From contig NZ_LT855392.1 of the NCBI RefSeq assembly GCF_900184735.1, positions 30,194 through 94,193 on the forward strand: a stretch of 64,000 nucleotides of DNA. The letters are read 5' to 3'. A model generated the notes under the pieces. The model saw only the letters and a program-made list of their open reading frames with translations. It searched no databases and had not been told where the DNA came from. This DNA comes from Paucisalibacillus globulus (GTDB lineage Bacteria; Bacillota; Bacilli; Bacillales; Amphibacillaceae). The translations under genes and the position numbers were made by a program. This document shows, in pieces, positions 56,553 through 61,803 of this stretch (its first letter is position 1; each line of letters opens with the position of its first letter).

Positions 56553-56645
56553 CATAAGGGCAGAATTTTACGCAAACATAACAAGCTCAGGAATAAACAA
56601 ATGCTAAAAGCATAAGAATTCCAAGCCTACTTGTTTCCTACAAAA

Positions 56646-56789
56646 TTCCTTCTCCCATCCAGACTATACTGTCGGCTCTGGAATTGCACCAGATCCACCG
56701 TAAGAACTTAACAGTTCTCACGGGTCACGGACTTAGAAGTTTTAGCTTCATCACCGCCGGTTGGGACTTTCACCCTCCCCCGAAGGAAT
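56646..56789 (-). promoter_or_regulatory. FMN riboswitch (RFN element)
   Basis: On the minus strand the conserved RFN parts occur in order: CTTCGGGGGAGGGTGAAAG, CCCAACCGGCGGTGATGAAG, AGTCCGTGACCC, GGATCTGGTGCAATTCCAGA, GCCGACAGTATAGTCTGG, ATGGGAGAAG. The outer helix is ATTCCTTC with GAAGGAAT. It should stop rib transcription at the downstream terminator when FMN is bound. Confidence 0.95.
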
Positions 56790-56813
56790 ACATAAAAATA
56801 TTCAATTTTGTTA

Positions 56814-57988: not shown

Positions 57989-58344
57989 AGTCTCATGCTT
58001 CAGGGTCTTGGGTGGATGGTAAACGATTTCGGGTGCATGCTTTACAATACCGGGGCATCCTCCATACTCATGGGCACATGATTCGCAATGTGGGGACCAT
58101 CCTACTCACTACCGGACGCATGTTTCGCGATAATGGGGACATGCTCTTCTCCATCGGGCGCATACTCCAGGATTTCGGGGACATGCTCTTCTCCATCAGG
58201 CACATACTCCGGGATTACGGGAGCATGTTACTCTCCATCGGGCACATACTCCGAGATTACGGGAACATGCTACTCTCCATCGGGCGCATACTCCGGGATT
58301 ACGGGAACATGCTCCAAGATATCAGAGACATACTACCCACTCCC
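57989..58344. repeat. Repeat array B: 17 tandem 21-bp units
   Basis: Seventeen head-to-tail units with the same skeleton as array A (GGGnnCATnnTnnnnnnnnnn). All are 21 bases except one of 20 (58052-58071). Units alternate between GGGCGCATACTCCGGGATTAC-like and GGGAACATGCTACTCTCCATC-like, giving the same 42-bp higher-order period. The 3' part is more regular than the 5' part. A plus-strand frame reads 14-residue repeats of GRILRDYGNMLLSI type, like the array A frame. The array ends 12 bases before the stop of the convergent pseudouridine synthase gene. Confidence 0.92.
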
Positions 58345-59267: not shown

Positions 59268-59498
59268 CTAATCTTCATCTTTTACATCAATGTCTTCAGG
59301 AATTGGTTCATGTAAGTATTCCTGAATCATTAATTTGTACTTTTCTACTTGCTCAAAATGAGTGGTAAACTGTTCTTTATTGATAAGATACTGTTCCCCA
59401 TCATGTATGGCTCTAATTTTCCCTTGCAATATTAGCGACTTCACTCTAATCTCATTCATGGATAAATAATCTGCTAGTTCTGGTATTGTTACGTACAT
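59268..59498 (-). CDS. Small excisionase-like HTH protein
   Basis: The product (76 residues from MYVTIPELADYLSM) has a MerR/excisionase-type HTH, residues 1-45 (IPELADYLSMNEIRVKSLILQGKIRAI, then INKEQF), and an acidic tail ending DIDVKDED. A longer frame from 59531 has no ribosome binding site. Such Bacillaceae proteins of about 75-90 residues are uncharacterised; the position before the pseudouridine synthase suggests cotranscription. Confidence 0.7.
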   Translation of the reverse strand: MYVTIPELADYLSMNEIRVKSLILQGKIRAIHDGEQYLINKEQFTTHFEQVEKYKLMIQEYLHEPIPEDIDVKDED

Positions 59499-59646
59499 TA
59501 AGAACACATCCTTTTCCCCTGAAATTATCATGAAAGTGAATAACCAATCCTAACTTTACTAAATTATTCAATAGTAAAATTGTCCTATATATACTATAAT
59601 CACCTTATAAATAATTTACAGCAACTAACAGGAGAATTATACACGA

Positions 59647-60999
59647 ATGCATTTAAAATTAGAAAACATAACTATTAATTATACTTTATATAATTCCCCA
59701 AAAAAGAATACGGATTATATTGTTTTGATTCATGGTCTGGGTTTAGACTCCTCAATGTGGGAACCGTTAATCCCTTGCTTACAAGACCATTATCATATTC
59801 TAACGTTTGATATGAGAGGTCACGGCGAAACAGTTGGACAAACCGATCATATCACTTGGGATCTATTAATAGAAGATTTCTATTCTTTAACATCTAAACT
59901 TCAGCTAAACGAATTTCATTTGGCAGGTTTAGGATTTGGTGGGAACCTTGCAGTTAAATTCAATGAGAAATATCCGGAAAAAGTCAAGAAGATCATTTTA
60001 ACTTCTACTTACATGTATTTCCCTGAGAATATTACAAAAAAGGAATTACAAAAGCGACAGAAACTCGTCACCGATGGGAATATGTCGGAGCTTTCTAAGA
60101 ATATGATACATCAGATTGTTCATAACCTTACACCGGAGATAGAACTGCTATTATGGAAGGCATATGGAAAGGTTGATCAAAAAACTTACTTCAACCTATT
60201 AAAAATGCTTGCAGAAACGGTTTCACTTGAAGACTTAAGAAATATTGATAAGGAAGTACTTCTTATCCAAGGTGATAAAGACCCCCTCTTCCCTATCCAG
60301 CAGACTAATCTTTATCAAAGTTATTTAAAGGACGCCGTTAGCTATACTGTACCGAATTCCTCTAATCTTGTTCCATTAGATAACCCTTCTAGTTTCTCCA
60401 CATTAGTTGGTAATTTTATCAAAGAAGGAAATAACGGTAACTTTACTACGATTATGGAACAAGAGTTTACCAATAACATTGAAGACCTATTTTCCAATTC
60501 ATTTGAGACCCTGGAAATCAACATCATTAATGGATTCTCTGTAAAGTACCAAGGTGTTGAAGTAGAGGGAAAGTGGAATCAACGTAAGGCAAAAAACTTA
60601 TTAGCTTATCTTGCTTATCACAATCCTTCTACAAGAGAAGATCTGATAGAAGAGTTTTGGGGAGAGAATGACCTAAGTAGTGCACAAAATAATTTGCGAG
60701 TCTCTTTAAATCATCTTAAACGGATTTTACGCGAACAGCAGTTAGAATCCCATTTACAAATCGAACGCGATCATATTAGTTTATCTGGAGACATATCTTT
60801 CGACCTATCCAACTATATGCATCTTCTTCAAGTGTGTAGTGCAGAAATAAATCCATTAAGAAAGAAAGCATTATATGATGAACTTAAACACCTATATCAG
60901 GAAAGAATGTTTCTTGATATGTATGATGAGTGGCTACTATCCATCCAACAGGAAATTGATGCAAGAATATACGCACTTACTAGGTCTATAGAACCATAA
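59647..60999 (+). CDS. Alpha/beta-hydrolase fold fused to SARP/BTAD-like DNA-binding domain; catalytic residues lost
   Basis: The 450-residue protein begins with a complete alpha/beta-hydrolase fold (about residues 1-260: IVLIHGLGLDSSMW, FDMRGHGET, LLIQGDKDPLFP). The nucleophile elbow reads AGLGFGGNL, so the expected Ser is Gly96, and the place of the catalytic His in the usual GHLVPLENP is SNLVPLDNP, with Asn240. The C-terminal part (about 291-450) is an OmpR/SARP-type winged helix (KAKNLLAYLAYHNPSTREDLIEEFW; NNLRVSLNHLKRIL) and a short BTAD-like helical region. It is probably a transcription factor whose hydrolase fold senses a ligand. It stands alone, with its target unknown. Confidence 0.78.
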   Translation: MHLKLENITINYTLYNSPKKNTDYIVLIHGLGLDSSMWEPLIPCLQDHYHILTFDMRGHGETVGQTDHITWDLLIEDFYSLTSKLQLNEFHLAGLGFGGNLAVKFNEKYPEKVKKIILTSTYMYFPENITKKELQKRQKLVTDGNMSELSKNMIHQIVHNLTPEIELLLWKAYGKVDQKTYFNLLKMLAETVSLEDLRNIDKEVLLIQGDKDPLFPIQQTNLYQSYLKDAVSYTVPNSSNLVPLDNPSSFSTLVGNFIKEGNNGNFTTIMEQEFTNNIEDLFSNSFETLEINIINGFSVKYQGVEVEGKWNQRKAKNLLAYLAYHNPSTREDLIEEFWGENDLSSAQNNLRVSLNHLKRILREQQLESHLQIERDHISLSGDISFDLSNYMHLLQVCSAEINPLRKKALYDELKHLYQERMFLDMYDEWLLSIQQEIDARIYALTRSIEP

Positions 61000-61082
61000 A
61001 AGAATTTCAGTTTATACAAAGAAGCTTGGGGCTATTAGTACCCCAAGCCTTTTTAAACTGCAAGTTTGTTTCCTCTATAAGT

Positions 61083-61514
61083 CTAATTATTTACCTCACG
61101 TTGTCTATATTCTAAAAACTCGACCTTAGGTACATCTAACGCACTACAAAGGGAATCAATTGGATATTGGTTCTCCAAAGTTTCGATGGCCTTATACTTT
61201 TCCTCATCCCCTTGAAGAAGAATTTGCAAATATGATTTCAAGGCCTCTACTTCAATTTTTAATTCTTCTATCTGTTTTTCAACCGACTTGTTATTCATTA
61301 CTTTTTCTATATGATGGATAGATCGCTCAAAGGCATTTGGACCTTCTTTTTTATATTTTTTGATCCATTCATAAACGTTGTCACGATGTCTAATGCCCAA
61401 GTCTTGGACGACTTCTTGAACAGGTTGTTCTTCGTCTAGTACACGTCGAATCGCTTCTAATTTTATCTGTTTACTGTATCGGCTGTATGGCTGTCTTTTA
61501 TTTTTCAACCCCAT
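61083..61514 (-). CDS. Solitary IS3-type transposase OrfA with truncated OrfB start
   Basis: The 143-residue protein has the IS3 OrfA helix-turn-helix (YSKQIKLEAIRRVLDEEQPVQE), a leucine-zipper-like coil (VEKQIEELKIEVEALKSYLQ) and a C-terminal segment ALETL-like YKAIETLENQYPIDSLCSAL that resembles the first HTH of OrfB. There is no DDE catalytic domain. It is either an IS remnant with a fused start of OrfB or a domesticated DNA-binding protein. The start (ATG after AGGGGTG, or the following TTG) is uncertain. Confidence 0.65.
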   Translation of the reverse strand: MGLKNKRQPYSRYSKQIKLEAIRRVLDEEQPVQEVVQDLGIRHRDNVYEWIKKYKKEGPNAFERSIHHIEKVMNNKSVEKQIEELKIEVEALKSYLQILLQGDEEKYKAIETLENQYPIDSLCSALDVPKVEFLEYRQREVNN

Positions 61515-61803
61515 CACCCCTATTACTAAAAGATAACCGTTTTTTCTTATTTAGATACTATTTATTATACTGAATTCACCATTACACATTCATTACATAA
61601 TCGTAAAGGTGAGTTGTTATTAGTCCTTATGTCATGGTCGAAGGATGGAAGATTGGGTAAACTATTTCTATCAGGATGGTTAGCAATCCGGTCTACTGGT
61701 ACAAATCAATAAATATCATCTTCACTGTCGATGGCGTAATACCATTCTTTTGTGATTCTAATAAAAAAAGCTTACAATGTGTTGGAGGAAAGGAGATACA
61801 TCT
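61515..61803 (+). other. Intergenic region before yojN
   Basis: About 290 bases with no clear gene. A 27-codon frame (61631-61714, MSWSKDGRLGKLFLSG) lacks a well-placed ribosome binding site. The promoter for the yojN-yojO pair must lie here, but no hexamer pair is convincing. Confidence 0.35.

Follow-up and report, generated by a model that had tools for sequence, protein, structure and literature searches.

A hydrolase fold without its catalytic Ser-His pair joined to a SARP-type DNA-binding domain: a putative one-component regulator in Paucisalibacillus globulus and related Bacillales

Among the signalling proteins built on an alpha/beta-hydrolase fold, KAI2, D14 and RsbQ keep the catalytic triad, and GID1 keeps the Ser and loses the His. 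Enzyme-derived sensors are also known from bacterial regulators, namely those of the ROK, DeoR and MocR types. In the present study, we analysed a 64,000-nucleotide stretch of DNA from Paucisalibacillus globulus (contig NZ_LT855392.1, positions 30,194 to 94,193), referred to as the window, in which one gene (59647-60999) encodes a hydrolase fold joined to a SARP-type output. SARP regulators carry an output of winged helix-turn-helix (wHTH) and BTAD domain N-terminally (PMC10936776). As given in the text on AfsR, the repeats in SARP target promoters lie 11 or 22 bp apart, the last one 8 bp from the -10 element (PMC10936776), and for PimR heptameric repeats with 4-bp spacers are described (PMC5930380). 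A c-di-GMP riboswitch upstream of sinI is listed for Bacillus methanolicus MGA3 (PMC4342826).

We consider it probable that the fused protein is a one-component transcriptional activator which senses through a pseudo-hydrolase pocket and exerts SARP-type promoter control over neighbouring genes. In this model, the N-terminal hydrolase fold, deprived of nucleophile and base, would act as the sensor, and the C-terminal portion, a SARP-type winged helix followed by the BTAD-like part, would bind two TGTAATG repeats spaced by 11 bp and located 10 bp before the -10 element. The bound protein would then recruit RNA polymerase to a promoter without the usual -35 element, with different clades switching on different neighbour genes, i.e. 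a gene termed c2 in the window and the SinR anti-repressor gene sinI in another clade. A small molecule in the old substrate pocket would set the activity.

Architecture of the fused protein and loss of the catalytic pair

The fused regulator gene (59647-60999, forward strand) is an open reading frame (ORF) of 450 aa which, according to Pfam, alignment and profile comparison, consists of an alpha/beta-hydrolase fold, a C-terminal SARP-type winged helix and a shortened BTAD-like part. The hydrolase-fold domain, the putative sensor, comprises residues 1-263 (59647-60435, forward strand) as judged from Pfam, a profile comparison against the PDB and a low-confidence model. A winged helix of SARP/OmpR type follows at about residues 288-380 (60508-60786, forward strand), and alignments place the start of a BTAD-like domain, shorter than in relatives of about 510 aa, at 60787-60996 (forward strand). 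Pfam Abhydrolase_1 matches residues 25-131 (8e-22) and other hydrolase families match residues 23-247; among curated enzyme families, those that come closest are the 3-oxoadipate enol-lactonases and the intracellular polyhydroxyalkanoate depolymerases, all far under their cut-offs. Six syntenic orthologues from the same genus share 51-81% identity with the protein, are 448-452 aa long and have an unchanged architecture. The ratios of nonsynonymous to synonymous substitution rates (dN/dS) for the hydrolase domain against two orthologues, 0.11 and 0.08, indicate that this domain is under purifying selection. Because of the six syntenic orthologues of the same architecture and the low dN/dS, the fused ORF is not a product of chance or of a frameshift.

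By codon and alignment, the nucleophile-elbow position is Gly96 (GGA; 59932-59934, forward strand) in place of Ser, the catalytic base position is Asn240 (AAT; 60364-60366, forward strand) in place of His, and the catalytic acid, Asp212 (60280-60282, forward strand), is retained. In order to place these changes in the family, 101 relatives and 397 genomes of the order were searched. Once duplicates, contained copies and three fragments had been removed, the set comprised 60 long proteins of the family, that of the window among them, and 31 unfused hydrolases, the latter being a best-scoring sample plus eight from the window's own genome and not a census. The 60 include one protein of 381 aa that matches only up to profile position 375 (L072) and two that are identical in the tree columns (L069/L070). 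Ser96 and His240 occur together in none of the 60, compared to Ser in 31/31 and His in 31/31 of the unfused hydrolases. Position 96 is Gly in 44, Arg in 4, Ser in 4, Gln, Ala and Ile in 2 each, and Lys and Tyr in 1 each of the family proteins, and position 240 is Asn in 21, Phe in 15, Ser in 9, Thr in 3, His in 3 and another residue in 9; three more proteins, none of them with Ser at 96, have a His one column before 240. Asp is present at position 212 in 54/60 proteins, and the HG of the oxyanion loop is, like the Asp, mostly retained. In a tree built without columns 96, 239 and 240 and with f48, another bacterial family of the class, left out, all 60 proteins fall on one side of a single branch (Shimodaira-Hasegawa-like approximate likelihood ratio test, SH-aLRT, 100), which is consistent with a single origin without being proof of it. 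By these counts, the loss of the Ser-His pair is a trait of the family.

Family f48 had a match in 21/148 genomes, and none of its 20 examined sequences keeps both Ser and His; four of the 20 are without an in-frame C-terminal domain (three of 301 aa and one of 320 aa at a contig edge) and one has 726 aa. The three free-standing 301-aa relatives of the dead hydrolase (L291, L292, L293), which have no in-frame DNA-binding part and likewise lack Ser and His, indicate that within f48 the loss occurs without fusion as well. In a sample of the phylum, a match was found in 2/398 genomes, the window's own and one of f48. At L163, L164 and L078-L082 (family f14 of the order), two or three paralogues of the hydrolase-BTAD fusion lie in tandem.

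With regard to the output domain, Pfam Trans_reg_C matches residues 314-371 at 2.9e-4, which is below its cut-off, and gives a match in 11 of 23 family members tested at E 0.01. A profile of 53 C-terminal regions (A3) was compared by hhalign with the output domains of Bacillales BTAD regulators fetched by PF03704. The probability was 99.7 over 217 columns and 99.3 with a second set, and the hydrolase profile, used as negative control, reached 0.3, so that the weak match of the winged helix turns into a firm one at profile level; the control set labelled RR (21 sequences) also contained four BTAD proteins of about 597 aa, truncated at the edge of the locus, and one of 537 aa. The alignment extends through BTAD over the 217 columns, and the window protein ends inside this domain. 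SARP regulators have their wHTH-BTAD part at the N-terminus and the fused protein has it at the C-terminus; we therefore name it a SARP-type output rather than assigning the protein to the classical SARP family. A comparison of the C-terminal profile with the PDB gave weak kin only (a DrrB-type response regulator at 0.13, AfsR at 0.58 and EmbR at 0.81), the better-scoring matches (designed TPRs, CspZ) not being wHTH proteins. In one relative (L076, 1614-2714), the dead hydrolase is joined to a LuxR-type GerE helix-turn-helix (HTH; PF00196, 1.1e-16) in place of wHTH-BTAD. This protein, which is counted among the 60, sits inside the sinI clade on the tree, and its 4.5-kb locus is without sinI and without the promoter motif described below. 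The single swap suggests that the hydrolase may be a portable input module.

The hydrolase profile, built from 55 family members, matches PDB esterases, enol-lactonase, RsbQ and KAI2/D14, with the best matches to an esterase (about 1e-37) and to enol-lactonase (about 1e-32), and KAI2/D14 further down, at about 1e-23 to 1e-20. A full-length AlphaFold model from three sequences had a predicted local distance difference test score (pLDDT) of 38.7. For the hydrolase domain alone, the pLDDT was 53.8 and the predicted template modelling score 0.60, and the N-terminal half of the sheet was visible, the cap and the region of residue 240 not. Of the 50 Foldseek rows shown for this low-confidence model, nearly all are hydrolase-fold enzymes by title (template modelling score 0.43-0.56, root-mean-square deviation 9.5-15 Å) and one is a designed protein cage (4iq4), so that this comparison adds little to the fold assignment.

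The first-pass annotation of this DNA had described a dead hydrolase fold joined to a SARP/BTAD-like winged helix, in agreement with the Pfam matches, the profile comparison and the residues at 96, 212 and 240, and the homologues with an intact triad that it had named as a refutation were absent from both sets, the 60 and the 20, so that this check came out in its favour. Its question about conservation of the two substituted residues received a divided answer: Gly96 is fixed in the window clade (7/7) and in the sinI clade (13/13), and Asn240 is fixed in the window clade only (7/7), the sinI clade having Phe in 12/13. The parallel it had drawn with plant receptors stands for the common hydrolase fold, the kinship being no closer than that. 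The receptor role for an ester, lactone or lipid signal that it had put forward is a hypothesis.

A direct-repeat promoter beside the fused genes

The promoter pattern next to the fused genes reads TGTAATG-N4-TGTAATG-N10-TAnnnT. The window genome contains a single exact copy (61564-61597, reverse strand), located upstream of c2. It consists of a putative direct-repeat operator found by repeat analysis, TGTAATG-AATG-TGTAATG with a period of 11 bp (61580-61597, reverse strand), and of a -10 element, TATAAT, at a fixed offset of 10 bp after the downstream repeat and facing the target gene (61564-61569, reverse strand). Among 60 upstream regions of 150 bp, 14 have a TTACA repeat at spacing 11 with at most one mismatch, compared to 0-3 at other spacings and to a mean of 1.3 and a maximum of 5 in 100 shuffles. 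Exact 7-mer self-repeats at spacing 11 were found in 7/60 regions versus 0-2 at the other spacings from 8 to 23. In all 25 target-side sites (10 of c2, 11 of sinI, 3 of c18 and 1 other), TAnnnT is present 10 bp after the heptamer, an offset that is the same throughout; at any other offset, the count does not rise above 9. The motif with at most one mismatch occurs in 33 of 40 fused-gene neighbourhoods (38 matches, 31 of them exact, in 1.32 Mb of strands), compared to 2 matches, none exact, in 0.43 Mb of control loci, and in 4/20 of the f48 loci. Twelve of the 60 fused genes have the promoter upstream and pointing away from the fused gene, none has it pointing toward the fused gene, and a divergent gene is called at most of the outward-facing promoters looked at (not in L157). 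Across nine c2 promoters, conservation amounts to 0.98-1.0 in the repeats, 0.80 in the -10 element and 0.44-0.49 in the flanks. A plain sigma-70 promoter scan finds nothing at the c2 promoter of the window, as expected if an activator stands in for the -35 element.

The conserved SARP-type promoter adjoining the gene bears out, at the level of sequence, the direct gene regulation that had been proposed at the outset, and we regard regulation by the fused protein as well supported by these comparisons. Binding of the repeats by the fused protein, followed by activation, is what we infer from them. A wider regulon was considered and rejected, as a loose pattern with 2 mismatches matches the genome about as often as its control; only matches with 0 mismatches are relied on, of which the window genome has one.

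The predicted target in the window, c2 (61083-61517, reverse strand), encodes a 144-aa HTH protein of IS3 OrfA type (Pfam HTH_Tnp_1, 1.8e-11) and was assigned by synteny and co-occurrence. A hairpin scan found a terminator-like hairpin (61022-61050) between the convergent fused gene and c2. One copy of c2 is present in each of 11 of 61 genomes, all of which have the fused gene, itself found in 14 of the 61 (Fisher p = 8.7e-10, without phylogenetic correction), and two members of the genus, G004 and G006, have neither gene. The perfect repeat (0 mismatches) precedes c2 in 8/8 loci with c2 beside the fused gene, one of them from another genus, and the repeat promoter precedes c2 in 10/11 cases overall. 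The traits of an IS3 transposase (mobility, multiple copies, OrfB) were not found for c2, which is single-copy in the 11 genomes and syntenic in the genus, and it appears to be a piece of a transposase that has been domesticated.

In another clade (13 rows, SH-aLRT 99), a small gene with a SinI motif directly follows the fused gene in 12 loci (L129, L131-L136, L138, L143, L145-L147), i.e. in all 12 BTAD-type members of this clade. The sinI-like genes encode 42-65 aa in the 11 listed and lie in a gap that is empty under a 70-aa ORF filter, and Pfam SinI is over its cut-off in 5/5 of the proteins tested. Between fused gene and sinI, the promoter is present in 11/12 loci, and a cyclic diguanylate (c-di-GMP) riboswitch of type I scores above the gathering score before sinI in 7/12. 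A GGDEF-EAL gene adjoins the fused gene in L136 (9240-13339) and adjoins c2 in L128 (10087-12357); in L136, a GGDEF gene then follows and two more c-di-GMP-I riboswitches precede these genes. Elsewhere in the window genome, away from the fused gene, two ORFs with a SinI domain (45 and 110 aa; C1:14384 and C1:14784) lie within 0.3 kb of each other, and we take them to be an ordinary sinI-sinR pair. A search of plasmids with the sinI-clade protein L018, limited to this query and to plasmids, gave no match.

Repeats of a like kind were also seen at other genes. At L219 and L222, GTTACA-N5-GTTACA lies in the contig region of BTAD regulators of about 1090 aa, by ABC substrate-binding and acyl-CoA synthetase genes, and operators with an 11-bp repeat may be widespread among the BTAD proteins of Bacillales. 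A membrane-type protein of about 105 aa, similar by eye in L225 (G235:C5:324124) and at L141:1967-2290, has an 11-bp TTACA repeat upstream in both cases, once beside a fused gene and once 15 kb from one, and is a possible second target.

The seven orthologous loci of the genus share the order S58 peptidase, RluD-like gene, excisionase-like HTH gene, fused gene and c2; a MoxR AAA gene lies further along in 7/7 and is the next gene after c2 in the window. The excisionase-like gene (87 aa; 59268-59531, reverse strand; TIGR01764, 1.1e-7) is divergent from the fused gene and kept in 7/7 genus loci. In the divergent region before the fused gene, an inverted repeat TTTACTA-N10-TAGTAAA and a conserved TCCTA are found at 59555-59588, the full repeat (by eye) in 5/7 orthologues and the TAGTAAA half in 7/7; the alignment of the seven orthologous intergenic regions delimits a conserved block in the gene's own promoter region, TAGTAAAATTGTCCTAT (59572-59588, forward strand). 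As a regulon marker, the motif TAGTAAA...TCCTAT was rejected, the reversed control giving 100 and 91 genome matches compared to 77 and 63 for the pattern (at most 3 mismatches). Further features of the window are a 42-bp tandem repeat array of 4.3 copies (58135-58315) within a short ORF beside the RluD-like gene, and a flavin mononucleotide riboswitch (56643-56791, reverse strand; Rfam RF00050, 118.6 bits).

Counter-evidence and alternative explanations

A number of findings weigh against the fused protein being a ligand-controlled activator of these promoters. With regard to the output domain, Pfam BTAD has no direct match in the window protein and does not appear in the list of 25 families obtained for 23 members, the PF03704 matches of the genome do not include the fused gene, and proteins of the window clade have a shortened BTAD part (about 450 aa in total versus about 500-536 aa in many other relatives). 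The structure models, at their low pLDDT, are too poor for a view of the pocket. As for the promoter, TTACA-N6-TTACA was first spotted by eye in the upstream regions of fused genes and the later spacing test used the same data; two of the 14 upstream regions, those of the window and L009, match weakly and do not show the -10 geometry; 7 of the 40 neighbourhoods are without the motif, and in L149 it lies 1.8-2.8 kb away from the fused gene. The GTTACA repeats near other BTAD regulators mean that the operator type is not exclusive. With regard to c2, 9 of its 11 genomes belong to one genus, so that the co-occurrence is phylogenetically clustered, c2 of G023 is without such a site, and in G002 and G003 the same promoter precedes c2 although the linked fused gene is missing. 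Both of these genomes hold other fused paralogues, one of which may recognise the site.

The main rival explanation, which otherwise overlaps with ours, is that the hydrolase domain is a protein-interaction or dimerisation module and that a partner protein instead of a ligand sets the SARP-type activity. Dead hydrolase folds serving protein contacts are known elsewhere, as in neuroligins, and the variation at the former catalytic positions, with Asn, Phe, Ser or Thr at 240 depending on the clade and Arg, Gln, Ile or Lys possible at 96, speaks for such a role. However, several residues are conserved across the window and sinI clades, namely His29 (18/20), Asp34 (20/20), Gly98 (19/20), Gly99 (20/20) and Tyr181 (20/20), as expected if the cavity matters, and no partner gene apart from the targets is conserved in the neighbourhoods beyond the window genus. 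On balance, we hold a purely protein-directed role to be rather unlikely. The constancy of His29, Asp34, Gly99 and Tyr181 fits a retained cavity, and the clade-wise change at position 240 fits differing ligands or pocket packing; Gly94 of the elbow is less strict, being Ala in 7/13 of the sinI clade. Ligand binding by the hydrolase pocket, with a small molecule as the signal, is what we infer from this pattern.

The repeat promoter could alternatively belong to another BTAD-type regulator, its closeness to the fused gene being inherited synteny. The same-period GTTACA repeats near 1090-aa BTAD regulators, near acyl-CoA ligase or transporter genes, and the intact c2 promoters of G002 and G003 would be accounted for in this way. 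Yet the motif accompanies the fused gene in clades whose neighbouring genes differ (sinI, c2, c18 and divergent genes), and G004 and G006, which have other BTAD proteins, lack the fused gene, c2 and any exact site (a site with 1 mismatch is present in G006), which makes this explanation improbable. That the protein is an active enzyme with an unusual nucleophile which also binds DNA, i.e. a trigger enzyme, would agree with the retained fold and catalytic Asp, but is very unlikely given Gly at the nucleophile position in 44/60 proteins, the lack of His in the four with Ser, and the fact that Gly combined with Asn or Phe gives no pair of nucleophile and base. A decaying gene fusion without function, to which the shortened BTAD of the window clade might point, is hardly conceivable with dN/dS values of 0.11 and 0.08 over the hydrolase domain, a conserved motif and a gene that is intact and syntenic in seven genus members.

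Significance and comparison with known systems

The fused family gives the impression of a bacterial signal receptor of a new kind. It would extend the range of sensor domains in bacterial one-component regulators by the alpha/beta-hydrolase fold, which ranks among the largest of the enzyme folds. It also provides a clear record of catalysis being lost while the fold stays under selection. One clade adjoins sinI, frequently together with a c-di-GMP riboswitch, and this points to a so far unrecognised route of input into the biofilm switch of sinI and SinR in Bacillales. As a tentative extension, which we would sooner doubt than assert, the family might have turned, through loss of catalysis and SARP-type fusion, into receptors that respond to a diffusible signal (an ester, lactone, acyl or polyhydroxyalkanoate-like compound), with one clade gating biofilm commitment by switching on the SinR antagonist, c-di-GMP being sensed on the same transcript so that a single small gene would receive two signals, and with the window genus wired to a domesticated transposase HTH. 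If true, this would be a bacterial counterpart of the plant hydrolase-fold hormone receptors within a single polypeptide. As the putative operator is short, exact and unique in the window genome, binding and regulation are readily testable, and the protein could be used as a reporter for ligand discovery. Literature searches in open-licence papers returned no description of hydrolase-SARP fusions or of such a regulator before sinI.

The B. methanolicus locus has the same pair of riboswitch and sinI as found downstream of seven fused genes here, but the available text on it mentions neither an adjoining regulator gene nor a direct-repeat promoter (PMC4342826). With the SARP regulators AfsR, EmbR and PimR, the fused protein shares a homologous winged-helix output, continued here by a BTAD-like part, and their operators, in which direct repeats follow each other at one helical turn (11 bp) shortly before the -10 element, resemble the putative operator of the fused family. 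When the repeat, here TGTAATG, is counted as a heptamer, its distance to the -10 element is 10 bp, and for SARP targets 8 bp are given (PMC10936776). The fused family differs from SARPs in that the output is C-terminal, the sensor is a dead hydrolase fold and the window clade has a shortened BTAD part. Enol-lactonases, esterases and intracellular polyhydroxybutyrate depolymerases share with the family the fold and, for the most part, the HG of the oxyanion loop and the Asp, whereas no fused protein retains the nucleophile Ser together with the base His. The plant proteins KAI2, D14 and GID1 and RsbQ of Bacillus use a hydrolase fold in signalling, as we propose for the fused family, but act through partner proteins, whereas the family has lost Ser and His and is joined to a DNA-binding domain. 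Regulators of the ROK, DeoR and MocR types likewise have an enzyme or pseudoenzyme domain as the effector-binding part, with different folds and DNA-binding domains. What would be new here, compared to all of these, is SARP-type one-component regulation with a new enzyme-derived sensor.

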